DNA of 64,000 bases from Rhodothermus marinus (lineage in GTDB: Bacteria > Bacteroidota > Rhodothermia > Rhodothermales > Rhodothermaceae): positions 3,021,890 through 3,085,889 of the forward strand of contig NZ_AP019797.1 of NCBI RefSeq assembly GCF_009936275.1, given 5' to 3'. A model generated the notes under the pieces. It was given only the letters and a program-made list of their open reading frames with translations. It searched no databases and was not told where the DNA came from. The position numbers and the translations under genes are program-made. Position 1 is the first letter of the stretch. Each line of letters starts with the position of its first letter. Below are positions 30,121 through 40,275 of the stretch, in pieces.

Positions 30121-31365
30121 CTACCCGTGCAGCCACCGGTCCAGCCAGGCGAACGCGTCTTCCTGCATGCTTCGATTGAAGCGGTGGCCTTCGTCGTAGA
30201 ACAGGCCCTGAAAATGCGTGGGCGCGCCAGCCCGTCGATACACTTCCTGCAGGATCTGTACGGCCCGTTCCATTTCCGGGAGTGTAAACAGCGGGTCCCG
30301 GCGGCCGCACTGCACAAGCGTTGGAGCGGGCACCCGCAGCCCCAGCAATTCGGGGTAGTCCAGGTCACGGGCCAGCAGCGGAATGTAGAGCATCCAGGTG
30401 TGCGTGTAGCTCCGATTGCGGGCCAGGTCGCGCCAGGTGGTGAGCATGCAGGTCACCACGGCACAGCGGATGCGCTCGTCCATCCCCGCCAGCAGCACGG
30501 TCTGCCAGCCGCCGCCCGAAAGCCCCGCGCACCCGATGCGGCGAGCGTCCACTTCCGGTCGTCTGCAGAGTACATCGAGCGCCCCGCGCAACTCGGCCAG
30601 CAGCACGCCCGGCCAGGTCGTACCGGCCGCCAGCAGCGAACGGGCCACCATGTGTTCGTGCCACGACGCCCATTCGTTGTAGGCCCGGATTTCCTCGGCG
30701 GTCTCGGGCTCCCGGGCGGGCAACCCGCGCCGGACACGTGGCGGCACGTCGGCCAGCCGGATGCGCCGGCTGCCGAAGGCCATCACATCGGGCACCAGCA
30801 CCACGTAGCCCCGCCGTGCCAGTTCGTTCGCCCAGGCCCGTCCATCGTAGAGCTTTTCCTGATGGGCAACCATGAGGGGATGGCGCGTGCCCGGATCGAC
30901 GATCTTCTCGCGCCCGAAGAATTTGTCGCCGCCATGATCGTGCAGGGCCAGCACACCCGGTAACGGACCCGAAGCGTCGGCCGGACGCAGCAGATAGGCC
31001 CGCGTGGGCGGCCCGAAGGGAAGCTGCCAGCGCAGGTCCTCGATGATCAGACCGTCGTGCGCAACGCGGGCCACTACCTCGGCATGGAGCACCGCACCGG
31101 GCTCCGGCATGCCCAGCAACGCCAGTACCCGGGCGCGCGCCTGCTGCCGCCACGCTGCCAGATCCACGGTCTCCTGCCAGCGAAGCGACAGCCGGGGTGG
31201 ATCTTCGGCCAGCGCGGCCGCCCAGTCGCCGTAAGCGCCGAGCACCGAGCCGGCTTCGGCGTCACGCGCCGGGGCTTCGTAATCCTCCGGCGGCGTCCAC
31301 CGGCGCCATCCCAGCGCCGCCGTGCCCAGCAGGGCTTCAAGGAAGGTGCGGCGATCCAGTCCCAC
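30121..31365 (-). CDS. Tat-exported α/β hydrolase, acetyl-xylan-esterase/dienelactone-hydrolase-like
   Basis: A 414-residue serine hydrolase. It begins with a twin-arginine-like signal (LDRRTFLEALLGTAALG). The nucleophile motif is GLSGGGW, the acid is probably in GRRDPLF and the His in DEGHRFN. I chose the GTG at 31365, 5 bases after the pectinesterase stop; an ATG at 31398 would overlap that gene by 28 bases. As the last gene of the pectin locus, removal of acetyl or other ester groups from pectin fragments is a reasonable guess. Confidence 0.8.
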   Translation of the reverse strand: MGLDRRTFLEALLGTAALGWRRWTPPEDYEAPARDAEAGSVLGAYGDWAAALAEDPPRLSLRWQETVDLAAWRQQARARVLALLGMPEPGAVLHAEVVARVAHDGLIIEDLRWQLPFGPPTRAYLLRPADASGPLPGVLALHDHGGDKFFGREKIVDPGTRHPLMVAHQEKLYDGRAWANELARRGYVVLVPDVMAFGSRRIRLADVPPRVRRGLPAREPETAEEIRAYNEWASWHEHMVARSLLAAGTTWPGVLLAELRGALDVLCRRPEVDARRIGCAGLSGGGWQTVLLAGMDERIRCAVVTCMLTTWRDLARNRSYTHTWMLYIPLLARDLDYPELLGLRVPAPTLVQCGRRDPLFTLPEMERAVQILQEVYRRAGAPTHFQGLFYDEGHRFNRSMQEDAFAWLDRWLHG

Positions 31366-31370
31366 GGTTT

Positions 31371-33611
31371 TCAGACGAGGTCTCGCCAAGGCGTCCATCC
31401 GGCCAGCACATGGACCGGCGCGTACAGCACCGCTTCCGCCGCCGTGAGCCGGGGTCGATCGGGATGGGCTCCCGGCCCGCTGCTGCCGTATTCGAAAAGC
31501 CGCTCACCCATCGGATCCACGCCGTGCATCTCCGTCCAGCCCTCGGGCCGGATGTGATCGTCCATGTAGCAGTGCAGAAAAACGGCGTTGCTGCTGACCA
31601 GCCCCGGCTGGTTCGAGGGATGCCAGGGACGTCCCAGCCACACCGAAGCCGGAGCCATCGCAGGCGATTCCTTCAGCAGGCGGCATCGATAGAAAATCAG
31701 CCCGTAGGGACGGCTCCGGGGCGTGCTGGGTGCCACCACGTAGCCGTTGTTGGGCCGGCCGCGATCCCGCGAAATCAGATCGCAGGCTTCGAAAACGGCC
31801 GTGCCCCCGCCGAAAATGAAGTCGACATGGCCGAGAATCGTACAGTTGCGAAAATAGCTCCGGTTGCCCTCGACGAAGAGCGTGTCCTGATAGCCACGAA
31901 TCACGCAGTCGTAGAAGACGGTGCGGTCGGCCTCGCGATCGACGAGCACGGCTACGGCCTGCAGGTCGCGCAGGCTGTCCTGATAGGCCGGATAGTCGAA
32001 GGCGTTTTCCACGGTCAGATGGGCGACGCGCACCGCAGGGGCGGCAATGCGCAGCGTGAAGCTGCCCCGCGTACCGCAACGGTCGGGTTGGCGGGGCTGT
32101 GCCGAGCGGTTTTCGGCCTGCCAGCGTGCCAGCAGCGCCCGCCGCAGCGGGCTGTCGGTACAGGGACCACCCGCCACGTCGTCGTAGGAGAGCACGGTCG
32201 TCTCCCGATCTTCGCCGATCAGATAGACGAAGGGCCGGTCGATGGAAAGCTTCTCATGGTAGCGGCCACGCCGCACGAAGATCACGTAGGGGGCGTCGTT
32301 GTCGGCCGGCACGTCGGCCAGCGCCCGGCCGATGGTCCGGTAGCGCCGCACCCCGTCCACGCGCGCTCCTTCGGGGCCGACGTAAGCCGGATCGACCACG
32401 GCGGCGTAGGTGTACGTGTCGGGCGCGGTGCGCAGGGCGCCGGTCGATGGCGTGAGGATCGCCACCCGAAGCGGCTCTCGAAGGCGCTGCACGAAGCGAT
32501 CCAGATACGCCCACCAGTCTTCGACCTGGCGGAAGTCGCCGGCCGCCGTCCATCCTGCCCCGGCATAGTGCACGACGGTTTCGCCCGGACGCATGCGGCC
32601 AAGCAGCAGGTAGTGGTCGTTGGTCTCGCGCACCGCTTCGAGCCGGTCGCCCGGCATCAGGACGGCCGTGCCCAGCTCGCCGTGTCCGCCATTTTTGCGC
32701 TCGACCGGTCCCCAGACGCCCAGCCAGGTCCAGTCGTCGCGCTGCTTCCAGGCGCCCGTTACCCCTTCGCGCTTGACCAGTCCGATCGCATAGGTCAGCG
32801 GCTCGCTATCGGCCGCCCGGAAAGTCACTTCTTCCCGAAACAGATACTGTCCGGCGTCGATCGTGATGCGCCGCACTTCCGACACCTGGCGGCCGCCCAC
32901 CTCCCACGGTTCGTAGTGCAGTTCCACGATGGCCCGGAGCGGACCGGCGGCCAGGATGCGGTACGACTTGAAGTTGCGGGCCGGAAACAGCCGTCCCTCG
33001 TGCCAGATGGCCGTGCCGCCGGCGCCCAGACTCTGGCCGACGGAGAAAAAGTCGGCGCCTTCGCCCGTGTCGATATGATAGGCGTCGTGCCCCTTCGCGT
33101 ACCAGCGGGTGATCACCAGATTGCGCACGCGCTTGAGCCAGACGTCGATGCCGCTCGACACGAGCGACTCCAGCTGCCAGAGGCCCTGGCCGTAGGTGCG
33201 ATACGCCACCCGATCGCTTTCCCAGGCCACATCGTCGCGTTGCGGCTCGTGATAGGCGAAAGCCCGGGCGGCAAAGGTCGTCTCCGGGGCCGCGGCCTCC
33301 ACGCGATAGGTGCGCGCTTCGCGGGGCCAGAGGCTCACCAGAAAGAGCAGCACGTCCGGACGCCCGTCGCCATCGTTGTCCACCACCTGGTGCAGGACCG
33401 ACCGGCCGCTGGCCTCGTCACGCACGCGCACCTGCTCGGGCGTCAGGGCCGGAAGCCGCTCGGCCAGCGGCGCCCAGGCCAGCTCGACCAGTTCGTCGGG
33501 ACGCGCCACATCCGAGGGATTCTCCACGCGAACGCGCACCGCTTCGGGCGTTTCGACGGCTCCGCCCAGCAGCGGCAGCAGTCCCAGCAGCAGAATCCTG
33601 CACCAGCGCAT
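31371..33611 (-). CDS. DUF4861 - pectinesterase (CE8) fusion protein
   Basis: A 746-residue secreted two-domain protein. It has a signal peptide (1-18); then a DUF4861 domain at about 25-400 (NPSDVARPDELVELAW, SGIDVWLKRVRNLVITRWY, GQSLGAGGTAIWHEG); then a pectin methylesterase right-handed helix at about 420-720. The PME motifs GYQDTLFV, GHVDFIFGGG and LGRPWHPS carry the two catalytic Asp and the Arg/Trp of the site. It should remove methyl esters from galacturonan. The DUF4861 half, common in pectin and ulvan loci, may act on the sugar chain. Confidence 0.88.
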   Translation of the reverse strand: MRWCRILLLGLLPLLGGAVETPEAVRVRVENPSDVARPDELVELAWAPLAERLPALTPEQVRVRDEASGRSVLHQVVDNDGDGRPDVLLFLVSLWPREARTYRVEAAAPETTFAARAFAYHEPQRDDVAWESDRVAYRTYGQGLWQLESLVSSGIDVWLKRVRNLVITRWYAKGHDAYHIDTGEGADFFSVGQSLGAGGTAIWHEGRLFPARNFKSYRILAAGPLRAIVELHYEPWEVGGRQVSEVRRITIDAGQYLFREEVTFRAADSEPLTYAIGLVKREGVTGAWKQRDDWTWLGVWGPVERKNGGHGELGTAVLMPGDRLEAVRETNDHYLLLGRMRPGETVVHYAGAGWTAAGDFRQVEDWWAYLDRFVQRLREPLRVAILTPSTGALRTAPDTYTYAAVVDPAYVGPEGARVDGVRRYRTIGRALADVPADNDAPYVIFVRRGRYHEKLSIDRPFVYLIGEDRETTVLSYDDVAGGPCTDSPLRRALLARWQAENRSAQPRQPDRCGTRGSFTLRIAAPAVRVAHLTVENAFDYPAYQDSLRDLQAVAVLVDREADRTVFYDCVIRGYQDTLFVEGNRSYFRNCTILGHVDFIFGGGTAVFEACDLISRDRGRPNNGYVVAPSTPRSRPYGLIFYRCRLLKESPAMAPASVWLGRPWHPSNQPGLVSSNAVFLHCYMDDHIRPEGWTEMHGVDPMGERLFEYGSSGPGAHPDRPRLTAAEAVLYAPVHVLAGWTPWRDLV

Positions 33612-33716: not shown

Positions 33717-34898
33717 TCAGTGCAGGGCGCCCCCCTCAAAAGCTTCGATCTCCAGGCTGGCCAGAATGAACGGACCGACGCCCTTCGGATCGTCGCTGAC
33801 GATCGGCTCGCTCAGGTAGTACGCAATCGAACCGTCCCGCTGTCGCGGCCCGCCCAGTCCGGCCACCGCGCAGATCTGATGCAGGTGTACCGTCCCATCG
33901 GGATCCACCGAAACCAGCTGCTTTACAAGCCCCCGATAGCCACGCCGGGCCACCTCCAGGTATTTCGCCGGCAGGTATCCTTTGCGTACTCCTTTGGCCA
34001 GCGCGTACACGAACATGCTCGAAGCGGACGCCTCCAGGTAGTTGCCCGGATAGGCGGGCTGATCGAGCACCTGGTACCAGAGACCCGTGACCGGATCCTG
34101 CACGCGCGCCACGGCTTCGGCCAGATCCTCCAGGATCCGGATGATCGCCGGACGATCGGGATGATCTGCGGGGAGCCAGTCCAGCACGTCCACCAGCGCC
34201 ATGGCATACCAGCCCATGCCACGGCCCCAGAAGTTGGCCGAACGGCCCGTGATGGAGTCGGCCCAGATCTGCTGGCGTTTTTCATCCCAGCCGTGGTAGT
34301 AAAGACCGGTGCGCGGGTCGCGCAGGTAGCGGGCGACCAGCAGAATTTCACGGGCGGTTTCGTCGATGGCTTTCGCGTCGCCGAACGTCACGCCGTAGCG
34401 CACCAGAAACGGCCCCATCATGTAGATGCCGTCGAGCCAGAGCTGGTAGGGATAGATTTTTTTGTGCCAGAAGCCGCCCTCGCTGGTGCGCGGATGGTGC
34501 CGGAGCTGATCGCGCAGTGTATCGATGGCCCGGCGATATCGTTCTTCTCCGGTCTGCTCGTAGAGCAGAAACAGCAGTTTCCCGGTGTTGATCTGATCCA
34601 GGTTGTACTCCTCCTTCTCGTAGGTGCGAATGGTGCCCTCCGGCGTGACAAACCGGTCGATGTTGGCCCGGATGTACTCGAAATAGCGCGATTCACCTGT
34701 CCTGAGCCAGAGTTCCTCGAAAGCGCGCAGCATGACGCCCACTTCGTAGTGCCAGCGCTCGGAGAGTAGCGGCTTCTGGCGCATGACGGACTCGGCCATG
34801 CGGACCGACCACGGCCGCACGTCGGGCGGCTGCGCCTGCGCGATCAGTCCCAGCAGACAACCCAGTCCGATTCCCAGAATTCGTCCGTACCAGCGCAT
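33717..34898 (-). CDS. GH105 unsaturated rhamnogalacturonyl/glucuronyl hydrolase
   Basis: A 393-residue secreted (α/α)6-barrel enzyme of the YteR/YesR type. It has a signal peptide ending LIAQAQ, the catalytic Asp in YQLWLDGIYM, and the conserved FWGRGMGWYAMALVD. It releases the unsaturated uronic acid left by pectate or rhamnogalacturonan lyases. The ATG at 34898 has GGAG 4 bases upstream; ATGs at 34916 and 34922 are alternatives. It lies between the β-helix gene and the pectinesterase fusion gene in one leftward locus. Confidence 0.88.
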   Translation of the reverse strand: MRWYGRILGIGLGCLLGLIAQAQPPDVRPWSVRMAESVMRQKPLLSERWHYEVGVMLRAFEELWLRTGESRYFEYIRANIDRFVTPEGTIRTYEKEEYNLDQINTGKLLFLLYEQTGEERYRRAIDTLRDQLRHHPRTSEGGFWHKKIYPYQLWLDGIYMMGPFLVRYGVTFGDAKAIDETAREILLVARYLRDPRTGLYYHGWDEKRQQIWADSITGRSANFWGRGMGWYAMALVDVLDWLPADHPDRPAIIRILEDLAEAVARVQDPVTGLWYQVLDQPAYPGNYLEASASSMFVYALAKGVRKGYLPAKYLEVARRGYRGLVKQLVSVDPDGTVHLHQICAVAGLGGPRQRDGSIAYYLSEPIVSDDPKGVGPFILASLEIEAFEGGALH

Positions 34899-34944
34899 GG
34901 GGCTCCGATGATTCATCGTCATGTCAGGTCTTGCAAGCAGAAGC

Positions 34945-35000: not shown

Positions 35001-36737
35001 TCAGTTGGCCGGAAGCAGCAACATCTTGCGCGTCAGCACCGTGCCCCCGGCTTCCAGGCGGTAGAAGTAGACGCCGGGGGCCGCCTTCCGGCCCAGCAGG
35101 TCCATGCCATCCCAGGTAGCCGTGTAAACTCCGGCGGCCTGCCGGACGCCATCGGCCAGACGGGCCACCTCCTGCCCCAGCAGGTTGAACACGCGCAGCG
35201 TGACGGTGGCCGGCTCGGGCAGCGTGTACGTGATGCGGGTTTCCCGCGTGAACGGGTTCGGGTAGTTCTGATGCAGCCGGAAGGCCGTCACCGGCAGGTT
35301 GCCGGGCTGGCGTTCGATGGTTGTCAGTTCCCACTCGGCTTTTTTGTCCGGGAACCAGTTCAGGTCGCCGGCCGGGAAGCCCTTGGCCGCGCCGGTGTAC
35401 GCGGGCGAATCGGTGGGATACGAAGCGTCGAACTCACGCATGAAGTACGTCACCGGCTTCCGATCGAAGTCGTGCAATGCGCGCACAAAGCTCGTGGTGG
35501 ACTTGGTGCGGCCGGTCTGCGTCCGGTACCACTCGGCCATACGCAGCATCTTGCTGATGTAGGGCCGGTTGGCGACTTGCAGATCCTCCAGTTCGATGAA
35601 CGCATTGACCGAGTCGGCTCCCAGGCGGCTGTTGATGTGGTAGGAAAGCGGCGCGCCCGGCCCGATGATGTCGTTGTCGCCGTCGGTGCCGTTGTCGGGG
35701 TTGCCGTCGTCGCCTGCCCCATCGCCGTACTTTTCATAGAAAGCCTCCACCGAGTCCGACACGGCCCAGTAGTTGTTCGACACGACCCACTGGGTCGTAT
35801 CGTTGGGCACCGAGAAGATCCAGATCATCCGCGGCTTGCCGTTGGGGTACAGCTCGCCGTGCTCGTCGAACTCGGCCTGACGGCTGGCGTCGCTCGTGTC
35901 GGCCCCCAGCACGAAGGAATCCAGAAACAGGTTGTTCGTAATCCGCACGCTCTTGCCCACCCATCCCAGGGCCAGCGTGCCGTGATACGACATGCCGTTG
36001 AGGATCGTGTTGTGGTCGAAAATCAGGTTGTTGATGGGCGCCGTGCTGGACCGGTGGCGAATGATGCGGTCCTGGAAGTTCACGAACGTGCAGTTTTGGA
36101 TGAACAACGTATCGACCGACGTATCCCGCAGGTCGATGGCCTTGCCGGCCCCGAAGTTCGAGCGTCCCAGATCGCCCATGTTGGCGAAAATCGTGTTGGT
36201 AATGCGGATCACACGCGCGGCCGCCTCGGTGCGGATGTGCTGTCCCCGCGTGTTGGACATGACGACCCCGTCTAGGATCAGATCATATCCCGGCGAAGTG
36301 GTGCGGATGATCGTACTCCCGATGTTGACCACCTCGTTGGGATCGGCGTCCACATAGCCCACCAGCACCACGTCTTTGATCCAGACGTTGCCCTCCATGC
36401 GAATGATCGGGTCCGCCGCAAACGTACCGGTCTGGGTATTCACCACCGGATAGATGATGGCTTTTTCGCCCTCGCCTTCTTCCGTCATCAGGCGTAGGTC
36501 AAATCCACGAACGATGATGTCGTCGTTGACCAGGTAAACGCCGTTGCGCCGCAGCACGTACACCCGGTTGGGGTCGTTCCGCTCCCCGGTGGCCGTCGTG
36601 TCGCCAGCGATCACCTCGTTCAGATACTGCCCCGACACGTTGAAGGGCTCGACGATCAGTTCCTGCGCCCTGCTGTTCGCCGCGCCGAACAATAACAGGA
36701 CAAGCAGCCCGATCCATGCACTCGTAGCGGTCCTCAT
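35001..36737 (-). CDS. Secreted right-handed β-helix protein with T9SS sorting domain (pectate-lyase-like)
   Basis: A 578-residue protein. It has a signal peptide (ending NSRAQ); a parallel β-helix at about 60-330 ([50 protein letters not shown]); an Asp/Asn/Gly-rich region; and a C-terminal sorting domain ([20 protein letters not shown] ... [16 protein letters not shown]). The sorting domain implies export by a type IX/Por-like route. The fold fits a pectate lyase or related polysaccharide-binding protein. No clear lyase catalytic triad could be assigned by eye. Confidence 0.82.
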
Positions 36738-36774
36738 GGCTTCCTCCGGTTGGTTGAAGGGATTGGTTCAGTTT

Positions 36775-39700
36775 TCAGAGTACCAGCCGCAGGCCGAAGT
36801 CCACGGTGGTCCCGTAGATTTCCCGATCGTTGGGCAGCCGCCAGCCCTGCACCCGGTTCAGCACAAGGGTGCCCTCCTCGACGTTCGTCAGGTTGTTCAC
36901 ATTGAGCAGGACGTACAGGTTGGGCCGAATCTGCTGGCGGAGCGCCAGGTCCCAGCGTGTGAAGCTCTTGACCACCCGATCGTCGCGGCCATTGGGCGAA
37001 AAGCGCGTGTTGAATTCGCCCTGGTGGAACATGGAAAGCCGCGCCGAAAAGCCCCGATAGTCGTAGCCGATCGCCACGTTGCTGAGGAAGTCCGGCTGGC
37101 GCTCCAGCTTGTGCTTGCGCTCAACAAAACGATAGCGCAGCTTGGGCACGCAGATGCCCGGTAGAATCTCCTCGCAGTACTCCTCGGTCTGCGTGCCCGG
37201 GATGTAGGTCTCCGACCGGATGAACGACAGGTTGTAGGTCAGCACCAGGTTGCGAAGCACCCCCGGCAGGAACAGAAAGTTGGCCTGATGCTCGATTTCC
37301 ACGCCCCAGACCCGCGTCGGCTTCGAGGAATTGTACGGATAGGTCAGGGCGAACCCTTCGTTCTGGAAGGGACTGGTCACGTTGATTCCCAGCCTGTCGA
37401 ACAGCGAGTCGGCCGAAGCGGCGTCGAAAAACGCGCCGTTGATCTGGTGGTACATGTTTTTGATGTCCTTGTAGAAGGCCGACACCGAAAACAGCCCGAA
37501 ACGGCCGTCGTAAAGCGCCACGTTCACCTCGTAATTCCAGGCCTGCGCTGCCTTCAGATCCGGATTGCCTACGAAAAGCGAGTTGCCGGGATAGAACGTG
37601 CCGGCCTTGCGCGCCACGAAGCTGGGCAGACGCTGGTTGTAGTCGGGACGCGCCAGCGCTTTGTAGGCGGCCAACCGCACCGTGAGAAAATCGGTGGGCC
37701 GCAGCGTCAGGTGTACGTTCGGCAGCCAGATGGTCTCCGAAAACGTGCTGCTGGTGTCTCGATAGGTCCCTTTGGGTACCGGAAAGCCGGACAGGTCATC
37801 CGGCGTGTAGCGCGTGAGGTAGTCGTTGTTTTCGCGCTCGACGCGCACCCCGGCAATGAGCGAAACGCGCGGCCCGAAATGCAACGTGTTCATCACATAG
37901 GCCGCCGAGACCCGCTCGGTCAGGTCATAGAAATAAGCGTCGGCTTCCAGATTGCGCTCGAACTCCGGGTTCGTCCCGGCCTGATCCGAAAAACCGTCTC
38001 GGTTCAGATCCCACCAGGTGCGGAGCAGATCCCGATCGATCATCGGATAGAGCCGGAAGCGGTCGAACAGGTCGCGGTCCTCCGGATTGGCCCCCAGAAA
38101 GTTCGTCACCAGCAGCCGGTCGCCCACCATCTGAAGCTGCTCGAAGGGGGTGCCTGTAAAGTCCTTGGGTACGACCTGCCCATCGGCCGTCTGGACGTAG
38201 CGCGGAAACGCTTCGTTGTAATAGGGCGCCAGCAGCTCACTGCGCTCCCGAAAGCGCGTCTTGCTCCGAAACTTTCCGCCCAGCTTGAACTGTCCGGCCA
38301 CTCCCCCGCCCAGCGCGTAGTCCCGCGCCAGATCCAGGTACAGCGTGGTCTCCCCTTCGCGATTTTCCTCCTCCCGATAGAACGCCGTGTAGAAGTAGGC
38401 CCGTTCGAAGTTGTTCAACGCATGGGAAATAATGCTTTCCGGCGGACCTTTCAGCTCTTCGGGCGGGATGCGCCCCATGCCGGCGATCGGATTGCCCTGG
38501 GGATCGGTGGCCGAAGGCTCCGTGAAGCTGATATCGAAGTCGAACGGATCGTGCGATTGCGACCGGGCATAGGAAGCCCCCCAGTTAAGCTGCCATCCCC
38601 TCAGGTACTGTTCGCCCCGCAGCGCACTGGTGAACGTGTAGATGTTCTGCTCGCGATCCCGGGCGCCATAGAACATCTCGGAGCCCTCGGTGGGATAGTT
38701 GCGATAGTAGTCGATGAAGCTGCGCTGGGTGGCGTTGAAGACGTTGTTGAAACGAATCGTCCCACCATCCGGCGTGTCCAGGTCCAGCAACAGGCTGACG
38801 CCCTGGCGCGTGCGGATTTCGTTACGGAAGTTCAGCTCGATGTCGGAGATTTCGTAGTCCGTACCGCCGGCCAGCCCCATATCGTAGGAGAGATCGTAGT
38901 ACTCGCGGCTCCGATCGCGCCGCTCCAGGCTGCCGATGAGCTGCACGCCCAGCCGCTTGCGCCAGAAGCGCTCTCCGTAGCGGGCGCTCAGATCGTACTG
39001 CCCCCAGGTCTGGTTCAGCTGATTGTAAGCGCCCCGCACATCGAAGCGAACGAGCCGCTGCTCGGGCGCTTTCCTGGTGACCAGGTTGACGCTACCGGCA
39101 ATCGCGTCGGCGTCCTTGTCGGGGGTCAACGCCTTGTACAGCTCAATGCCGGCCAGCGAGCTCTGCGAGATCGTGCTCAGATCGAGGCCCCGGGCGTCCG
39201 CGTCGGTCGCAGCCAACCGCACACCATCGACCGTAATCGTCGTGAAGCGATCGCTCAGCCCACGCAGTACGATCTTGTTGGCCTCGCCGCCGGAACGCTG
39301 CACGGCCACCCCGGGCAGCCGCCCAAGCGCTTCCGCCGCGTTGGCGTCCGGCAGTTCCTGAATTTTTTCCTCCGAGACCACGTTGACGATCGTGTTCGCG
39401 TTGAGCTGCTGGTTGATGGCGGCCACCTGGCCTTCGACCTGTCCGACAATCACGATCTCCTCTCCACCGATCGACTCGGGCACCAGGGCAATGTTCAGCA
39501 CGATCGTCTCCCCGTCCTGAATGCGCAGGGGCAATTCGCGCGTCTGATAGCTCAGATAGGAAACGCGCAGCGTGTAGGTGCCGGGTGCAATGCCCGTGAT
39601 GCGATAGCGTCCTTCCAGATCGGTCGCACTCCCTTTGCCCGTGCCCACCAGATACACGTTGGCTCCCGGCAACGCCTCGCCCGTCAGCGAATCGGTCACC

Positions 39701-39789
39701 ACGCCATAGACCGTACCCTGCGCCAGTGCAGCCGGAACGGCCGTCAGCGCTCCCAGGGTCAGACTCAGTGCAAGCCACCAGTTTTTCAT
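36775..39789 (-). CDS. TonB-dependent receptor with CarboxypepD-like domain (pectin locus)
   Basis: A 1004-residue outer-membrane receptor. It has a signal peptide (MKNWWLALSLTLGALTAVPA...), a CarboxypepD-like domain at about 25-105, a plug domain (about 110-235, LPDANAAEALGRLPGVAVQR) and a large β-barrel ending DFGLRLVL. I chose the ATG at 39789; a TTG 15 bases upstream is in frame. It heads the pectin locus and should import oligogalacturonides or rhamnogalacturonan fragments. No SusD partner gene is visible next to it. Confidence 0.9.
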   Translation of the reverse strand: MKNWWLALSLTLGALTAVPAALAQGTVYGVVTDSLTGEALPGANVYLVGTGKGSATDLEGRYRITGIAPGTYTLRVSYLSYQTRELPLRIQDGETIVLNIALVPESIGGEEIVIVGQVEGQVAAINQQLNANTIVNVVSEEKIQELPDANAAEALGRLPGVAVQRSGGEANKIVLRGLSDRFTTITVDGVRLAATDADARGLDLSTISQSSLAGIELYKALTPDKDADAIAGSVNLVTRKAPEQRLVRFDVRGAYNQLNQTWGQYDLSARYGERFWRKRLGVQLIGSLERRDRSREYYDLSYDMGLAGGTDYEISDIELNFRNEIRTRQGVSLLLDLDTPDGGTIRFNNVFNATQRSFIDYYRNYPTEGSEMFYGARDREQNIYTFTSALRGEQYLRGWQLNWGASYARSQSHDPFDFDISFTEPSATDPQGNPIAGMGRIPPEELKGPPESIISHALNNFERAYFYTAFYREEENREGETTLYLDLARDYALGGGVAGQFKLGGKFRSKTRFRERSELLAPYYNEAFPRYVQTADGQVVPKDFTGTPFEQLQMVGDRLLVTNFLGANPEDRDLFDRFRLYPMIDRDLLRTWWDLNRDGFSDQAGTNPEFERNLEADAYFYDLTERVSAAYVMNTLHFGPRVSLIAGVRVERENNDYLTRYTPDDLSGFPVPKGTYRDTSSTFSETIWLPNVHLTLRPTDFLTVRLAAYKALARPDYNQRLPSFVARKAGTFYPGNSLFVGNPDLKAAQAWNYEVNVALYDGRFGLFSVSAFYKDIKNMYHQINGAFFDAASADSLFDRLGINVTSPFQNEGFALTYPYNSSKPTRVWGVEIEHQANFLFLPGVLRNLVLTYNLSFIRSETYIPGTQTEEYCEEILPGICVPKLRYRFVERKHKLERQPDFLSNVAIGYDYRGFSARLSMFHQGEFNTRFSPNGRDDRVVKSFTRWDLALRQQIRPNLYVLLNVNNLTNVEEGTLVLNRVQGWRLPNDREIYGTTVDFGLRLVL

Positions 39790-40275
39790 GGTCCTTCGAT
39801 ACAAGCAGCGGCACCACGCCCTGGGTGGTACCGGTTTCTTTCAGAATAGTTAACGGTTACTTTATCGTTTGACCAAAGTAGGAGTACCCTTTCATTCCCG
39901 CAAGCCCTTTCTACATCCCTCCTTCAACTTAACACCAATTTCATAAATTGACTGAATGAATCATACGATTTCCGGGAAATCATAGTGCATGTAAGGAAGC
40001 ACGGGCGCACACGGCGGTGCGCCCCTACCAGATCCTTAACGTTTTCCCTATCCCGTAGGGGCGGACCCCTGTGTCCGCCCGATCATACCCGCCGGATTAC
40101 GTTCGCCAAACGGGGTTGTGGCACCCTCATACACCGGTAAATCAGCGATCCCATATCAGCCGTGCCTGTGCGAAGGGCCGGTTGCAGACAGGAGGTGCTC
40201 GTCCTGCTTTCGCGATACGCCCGCACCTTTCGCCCCGCAAACCGGTATAACGTCAAAACCAATCCGCTGCTTGCC
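39790..40275. other. Intergenic region: receptor promoter and structured repeat
   Basis: A 486-base region between divergent genes. The part at 39840-39960 is AT-rich and should hold the leftward receptor promoter; I cannot assign -35/-10 boxes with confidence. The repeat described separately fills 39963-40148. The remaining bases form the leader of the DUF7009 gene. Confidence 0.6.
39963..40148 (+). repeat. Structured dispersed repeat, copy A
   Basis: About 186 bases whose reverse complement recurs at 49859-50040. Core hairpins are GGGCGCACacggcgGTGCGCCC and GGGCGGACccctgtGTCCGCCC. Conserved spacers include TTTTCCCTATCCCGTA and GATCATACCCGCCG. No coding capacity is seen. It resembles a palindromic REP/BIME- or MITE-like element. 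Confidence 0.85.

Follow-up and report, generated by a model that had tools for sequence, protein, structure and literature searches.

Gene organization around the fused gene

The window, a 64,000-nucleotide stretch of the Rhodothermus marinus genome, carries a 746-aa gene (positions 31371 to 33611, minus strand, as are all window features described below) in which a signal-peptide-like N terminus is followed by a DUF4861 domain and a CE8 pectinesterase domain. The DUF4861 domain (aa 29 to 383; positions 32463 to 33527) matches Pfam family PF16153 over profile positions 1 to 380 of 380, at 310.6 bits against a gathering score of 22.3 bits (E 1.9e-92). It also matches the NCBIfam BT_3233 family equivalog (NF058564) along its full length, although, at 314.3 bits in the whole protein and 317 as an isolated domain, it falls 3 to 6 bits short of the cut-off of 320, and it differs from that family by its CE8 fusion. 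Neither NF058564 nor PF16153 assigns a reaction, and a literature search found no paper naming DUF4861 or BT_3233.

An interdomain linker, delimited from the sequence (aa 384 to 419; positions 32355 to 32462), leads into the CE8 domain (aa about 420 to 741; positions 31389 to 32354), which matches PF01095 with 145 bits against a cut-off of 27 (E 2.7e-42). CE8 pectinesterases remove methyl esters from homogalacturonan. The solved-structure relatives of this half are Dickeya-type, PemA-like pectinesterases (1qjv, 2nsp; E 6e-56), and in alignment to PemA it retains GYQDTL (aa 573), DFIFG (aa 597), and GRPW (aa 660), which we take to be the catalytic motifs (Gln/Asp, Asp, and Arg/Trp, respectively).

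Upstream of the fused gene and on the same strand lie three genes. The nearest encodes a YteR-like GH105 with a signal-peptide-like N terminus, predicted to be an unsaturated (rhamno)galacturonyl hydrolase (33717 to 34922; PF07470, E 7e-119; 4wu0, E 1.5e-120; YteR, E 7e-86). It is followed by a secreted 578-aa protein with a T9SS tail (35001 to 36737; TIGR04183, E 5e-13), which is beta-helix-like by eye and had no sequence match in the PDB, and by a TonB-dependent receptor (36775 to 39804; TIGR01782, 353.7 bits, cut-off 310). Downstream, overlapping the end of the fused gene by 28 bases, is an alpha/beta-hydrolase with a Tat-like N terminus, possibly an acyl esterase (30121 to 31398; PF00326 and PF01738 over their cut-offs; SusD/RagB-associated esterase-like 3g8y, E 6.6e-05). 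A KduI gene is present in the same genome approximately 0.2 Mb from the fused gene, outside the operon.

The sequence-only reading of this locus had described a fusion of DUF4861 to a CE8 pectinesterase in the company of GH105 and a receptor, and this description stands: both Pfam domains occur in one 746-aa frame in three of the seven genomes of the genus, and a GH88/GH105 gene and a TonB receptor lie upstream. In these three genomes the fused frame of 746 to 748 aa is open, DUF4861 is always fused, and the most distant fusion shares 79% identity across the CE8 half; a chance or local frame error was thereby ruled out as the source of the fusion. The 3.43-Mb, one-contig genome contains a single copy of DUF4861, a single detected CE8 gene, and one GH88-family place, which is the operon GH105.

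Pairs of a TonB receptor and a T9SS-tailed, beta-helix-like protein recurred in our data (window 35001 to 39804; L131:3-4844; L132:317-5217; L026; L125), with close relatives of the window T9SS protein adjoining the receptor in L131 and L132. Many Bacteroidota use SusC/SusD pairs, and in this order the T9SS-tailed protein may be a surface partner that replaces SusD. In genome G001, a 1,218-aa frame adjoining the same operon (L127:1206-4859) combines two-component-type propeller repeats, Y_Y_Y, and an MCP signaling domain and is possibly a chemotaxis receptor for pectin fragments. The genome of the window also has, outside the window itself, a second pectin cluster (L144; G000:C1:2937000-2956900) with an SSF symporter, a short-chain dehydrogenase, GH28, two T9SS proteins, and a PL1-like protein that is 54% identical to the operon copy of genome G011 (L131).

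Origin of the CE8 fusion

DUF4861 was found unfused or in a shorter frame in six further genomes among the 40 searched. Genomes G012, G016, and G036 have the order GH105, DUF4861, and a separate CE12-CE8 gene, and G011 has the order TonB receptor, T9SS protein, uronate isomerase, PL1-like protein, GH105, and DUF4861. At L131 and L132, both from the same order, the receptor, T9SS protein, uronate isomerase, GH105, and DUF4861 genes are consecutive, with the PL1-like gene in addition at L131 (PF00544, 20.8 bits, below the cut-off of 24). At L129, L130, and L132 a CE12-CE8 gene directly follows DUF4861.

Outside the genus, the nearest relatives of the window CE8 half among the loci compared are the CE8 halves of GH28-CE8 (L020, L023, L027), CE12-CE8 (L129, L130, L132), and PL10-CE8 (L024) genes, all positioned downstream of DUF4861 in their loci. 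The fusion differs from these relatives in carrying an N-terminal DUF4861 where they have CE12, GH28, or PL10, and its linker falls where, in sister genomes, the DUF4861 gene ends and the CE12, GH28, or PL10 part is found. The simplest account is that two neighboring genes were joined when the middle domain separating them was lost. A quickly built tree of 84 DUF4861 domains contained two of the CE8 fusions, and these grouped in a single clade (100*) beside Roseithermus. The CE8 fusion is a local event, found in one genus only, and is little informative on the DUF4861 family.

Gene neighborhoods of DUF4861 across bacteria

A scan of genome contigs, using two peptide patterns that cover A129-A136 and S152-K160, gave 554 relatives, the best 80 of which we treat as named loci. 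These 80 span Rhodothermota, Gemmatimonadota, Bacteroidota, Ignavibacteriota, Verrucomicrobiota, Lentisphaerota, Planctomycetota, Acidobacteriota, and Myxococcota, plus one Pseudomonadota bin. GH88/GH105 genes occur in 56 of the 80, and in 47 of the 56 loci of at least 12 kb; in 13 of the 80 they share one frame with DUF4861, and all 13 were confirmed by Pfam. KduI-like genes are present in 43 and KduD-like reductase genes in 48 of the 80, mostly adjoining DUF4861 on the same strand, and the KduI start often lies a few bases after the DUF4861 stop (e.g., L037, L061, and L068); Pfam confirmed KduI in 6 of 10 DUF4861 neighbors tested. No GH88/105 was seen in 24 of the 80 loci and no KduI in 37, many of these being short contigs. 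CE8 genes occur in 13 of the 80, in none of them fused. Counted from the release of the unsaturated uronate, DUF4861 is joined to the first step (GH105/GH88) of a route whose third and fourth steps (KduI and KduD) it adjoins.

The sequence-only reading had also pointed to other DUF4861 fusions as a check on its proposal; those listed here have GH88/105 (13 of 80 loci) or GH2 (L125) as the partner, with CE8 as a partner in one genus only. The GH88-DUF4861 order characterizes a set from Planctomycetota, Verrucomicrobiota, and Acidobacteriota, and one locus from a myxobacterium, together with a pair resembling Rubrivirga, has the DUF4861-GH88 order. GH88/105 fusions, in both orders, fall at at least three places on the DUF4861 tree, and the fusion states, with CE8 and GH2 included, require six changes on the tree of 84 domains, in which the long branches L124 and L125 are placed unsurely.

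The GH88 partners vary in type. The window GH105 and the fused GH105 of L050 are YteR-like, and the fused GH88 of L061 is nearest to an ulvan unsaturated rhamnoglycuronyl hydrolase, and the family thus extends beyond pectin. Among plasmids, GH88 is present at five loci, from Hymenobacter, Persicobacter, and Fibrella; in four it is annotated, and in the fifth, which has no annotation, phmmer detected it. Four of the five further encode GH28, GH43, GH127, GH97, or DUF2264.

Several other architectures were noted among these loci. L125:5469-8759 (G097) encodes a GH2-DUF4861 fusion beside GH88, a T9SS protein, and a TonB receptor. Planctomycetota have three-part BNR_4-GH88-DUF4861 proteins (L061:7658-11089 and L075:1915-5514); the BNR_4 part of L061 could be a lyase, and a sequence search of solved structures gave no match to it. 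At L035, L038, L055, L064, L071, L093, and L096, neighboring frames of approximately 890 to 1,005 aa match both GH28 and GH105 queries and are apparent GH28-GH105 fusions in Verrucomicrobiota. In a Massilia bin (L089), DUF4861 groups within Opitutaceae/Akkermansia sequences, which indicates either a transfer or a mis-binned contig.

Comparison of genomes with and without DUF4861

Of 394 genomes sampled from the phylum, 80 carry DUF4861, which also occurs in several other phyla. From these 80 we hand-picked 41 genomes for genus spread (52 copies of DUF4861) and, for KduI comparison, chose by hand 41 genomes without a DUF4861 match from the same sample. The proximity count covered 106 GH88 and 45 CE8 places, with second pieces of counted ORFs and sub-cut-off rows (11 and 6 rows) excluded. 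Of the 52 DUF4861 copies, 33 have GH88/105 at a distance of at most 10 kb (random expectation, 0.77); for KduI the count is 23 at 10 kb and 34 at 20 kb (random expectation, 0.30 and 0.58, respectively). CE8 lies within 10 kb of nine copies (random expectation, 0.32), an enrichment that is far less than that of GH88/105. Further, GH88/105 is present in 40 of the 41 DUF4861 genomes, and in 17 of the 41 no CE8 place scored above the cut-off. CE8 as the usual partner of the family was ruled out by its proximity enrichment, far below that of GH88/105, together with its presence in 13 of 80 named loci and fusion in none.

The association with KduI extends to whole genomes, KduI being present in 41 of 41 DUF4861 genomes versus 3 of 41 genomes without DUF4861 (Fisher p 6e-20), a co-occurrence that is confounded, as the entire pathway is gained and lost together and DUF4861 is not separable from it. 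Contrasts within genera follow the same pattern: G000 has both DUF4861 and KduI and G002 and G003 have neither, G117 and G207 have both and G091 neither, and G094 has both and G059 neither.

These distributions bear on the proposal of the sequence-only reading that DUF4861 acts on pectin or rhamnogalacturonan. The part that concerns the window locus is upheld by its pectin context (the operon, the CE12-CE8 neighbors in relatives, and the YteR-like GH105). As a statement about the family it is too narrow, given that GH88/GH105, KduI, and KduD are what recurs and that an ulvan-type GH88 occurs as a fusion partner. The strict form of the idea, in which DUF4861 would be a pectin-specific enzyme tied to CE8 and acting directly on pectin or rhamnogalacturonan, could draw on the window fusion, the operon content, the CE12-CE8, GH28-CE8, and PL10-CE8 neighbors in relatives, and the closer-than-chance spacing of CE8, but the DUF4861 genomes without a CE8 place, the low count of CE8 among the named loci, and the ulvan-type fusion make it improbable. 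The common denominator of the DUF4861 loci is the unsaturated uronate rather than the methyl ester.

Predicted fold and conserved residues

The AlphaFold2 model of the DUF4861 domain (61-row alignment; pLDDT 94.9, pTM 0.91) combines a RIFT barrel with a mutarotase-type beta-sandwich. Among solved folds it comes closest to the sandwich part of GH38 mannosidases (Z 16.5), GH65-type sandwiches (Z 15.4), and the PL26 exo-rhamnogalacturonan lyase (Z 15), and the mutarotases, heparinase HepC, and YidC sandwiches reach Z 13 to 14. The likeness to GalM (4bze; Z 13.2 over 200 residues) is one of beta-sandwich fold, for which many unrelated enzymes score similarly. DUF4861 shows no sequence match to GalM and differs from it by a RIFT barrel in addition to the sandwich and by an N terminus resembling a signal peptide. 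A search of the DUF4861 profile against solved-structure sequences gave just a chance antibody match (E 0.19), and a search for distant kin in Pfam at E 10 gave nothing useful and no PcRGLX family match.

PL26 (PcRGLX, 5xqg) is among the structural matches of widest coverage: it aligns to residues 20 to 390 of the model over 285 to 294 residues, using the part of its chain before the toroid (residues 23 to 513), with the RIFT barrel and central beta-sandwich in common; the coverage of GH38 is equal. It differs in that DUF4861, which ends at aa 383, is without the C-terminal alpha/alpha toroid (PcRGLX_3rd), and the structural identity is 10 to 11%. Against six PL26-like proteins, one of them from the genome of the window, profile-profile comparison gave a match confined to the N-terminal RIFT part (E 5.7e-7, probability 92%). 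An 880-aa PL26-like protein with a weak match to the PcRGLX families is encoded elsewhere in the genome of the window (L153:1145-3784; G000:C1, about 2.613 Mb), and PL26-like genes also occur in G059 and G091, genomes without DUF4861 and KduI. The AlphaFold2 model of the L050 DUF4861-GH105 fusion has pLDDT 77.6 and pTM 0.54, with part of its DUF4861 domain below pLDDT 50, and the 50 structural matches listed for it are mostly GH105/GH88 and other toroid enzymes, with PL26 not among them.

The structural and profile matches to PL26 suggest a second reading, in which DUF4861 would be a poly- or oligosaccharide lyase, a shortened PL26 relative without the toroid, that makes the unsaturated ends for GH105 and uses K160 and H179 as base and acid. 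PL4 rhamnogalacturonan lyase employs such a Lys/His pair. This reading gains from the requirement of GH105, YteR-like in the window, for a lyase product. However, separate lyase-like genes are present in the same loci (the PL1-like gene of L131, with its relative elsewhere in the genome of the window, and the PL10 gene of L024), an alginate-lyase family was found in 3 of 78 scanned neighbors (chosen from 161, with GH105 and CE8 already seen excluded), and a lyase would be expected to track one glycan, whereas the GH88 partner types vary. As the PL26 match is without the toroid and the profile likeness is confined to the N-terminal domain, we regard a lyase as rather unlikely.

The segment aa 125 to 187 (positions 33051 to 33239) holds most of the invariant polar residues. 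N31, Q75, E131, R138, Y140, D156, K160, and D187 are invariant in all 27 members found by the Pfam profile, which are 20 to 34% identical to the window domain, and Y178 (24 of 27) and H179 (23 of 27) are nearly so in these divergent members. In alignment A3, 61 of whose 61 members match NF058564, 17 of 28 conserved polar or Trp columns fall within aa 120 to 200, a region toward which this alignment is biased by the search patterns at A129-A136 and S152-K160. Invariance of this kind points to an enzyme or to a ligand site of high specificity.

In a third reading, DUF4861 would catalyze nothing itself but serve as a binding or scaffolding module by which GH105/GH88, CE8, or GH2 enzymes are capped or positioned. 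Its fusion to at least three unrelated enzyme types would fit such a role, and its fold could in principle pack on an alpha/alpha toroid, an arrangement known from other two-domain carbohydrate enzymes. The majority of copies, however, are free-standing frames of approximately 400 aa, and eight polar residues that stay invariant at this level of identity would be unusual for a binding module; we consider this reading unlikely and place it below the lyase.

Proposed role in the unsaturated-uronate branch

We conclude that DUF4861 is very probably a component of the delta-4,5-unsaturated-uronate branch (lyase, then GH105/GH88, then DKI, then KduI and KduD). Unsaturated galacturonate and unsaturated glucuronate are the same monosaccharide, as the C4 configuration is lost, and this sugar is the common intermediate of the pectin, rhamnogalacturonan, and ulvan lyase pathways. 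A constant GH105/KduI partner despite changing lyases and polysaccharides would thereby be explained, and when the downstream partner is constant while lyase and glycan vary, a step that acts on the freed uronate is a better fit than a lyase dedicated to one glycan. Further, mutarotase-type folds open sugar rings. On the strength of the partner pattern and this property of the fold, we consider ring opening the likeliest of the readings, followed by a PL26-like lyase and, last, a non-catalytic module.

In the proposed route, a lyase would cut the polysaccharide and GH105/GH88 would free the cyclic unsaturated uronate, which an extracytoplasmic DUF4861, with its RIFT barrel and mutarotase-type beta-sandwich, might open to the linear keto form (DKI; 5-keto-4-deoxyuronate), to be taken on by KduI and then KduD. 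The unsaturated uronate opens to DKI nonenzymatically or via KdgF, after which KduI and KduD act (PMC12838403). DUF4861 would resemble KdgF, which performs this step in some bacteria, in its proposed reaction and pathway position and differ from it in fold, KdgF being a cupin, and in appearing to be secreted. If secreted, DUF4861 would act in the periplasm or extracellularly in those pathways that combine an exported GH105/GH88 with a subsequent KduI. In the genus of the window, its gene became fused to the CE8 gene downstream, which would bring an early and a late pathway step into one protein.

The specific chemistry, the opening of the cyclic unsaturated uronate from GH105 to the linear keto form, is assigned tentatively. 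The fold is common to many carbohydrate enzymes, and, in the structural comparison, GH38 and PL26 outscore GalM, which counts against reading ring opening from the structure; the co-localization of DUF4861 with KduI would fit a lyase as well. The distance of KduI from the operon in the genome of the window and the named loci in which GH88/105 or KduI was not seen also weigh against this explanation. Taken together, an enzyme of the unsaturated-uronate branch with ring opening as its likeliest chemistry is the best explanation overall, one that we hold at slightly less than even confidence. Somewhat more speculatively than the chemistry itself, DUF4861 may be a secreted, non-cupin counterpart of KdgF with a mutarotase fold that serves pectin, ulvan, and other uronide pathways.

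Implications

The analysis gives DUF4861 a pathway and eight invariant polar residues, and the fusion protein, from an inferred thermophile, offers a convenient test object. If DUF4861 is a lyase, it would represent a new lyase family. If it opens unsaturated uronates, it would be an enzyme for a step that is considered spontaneous in many bacteria.
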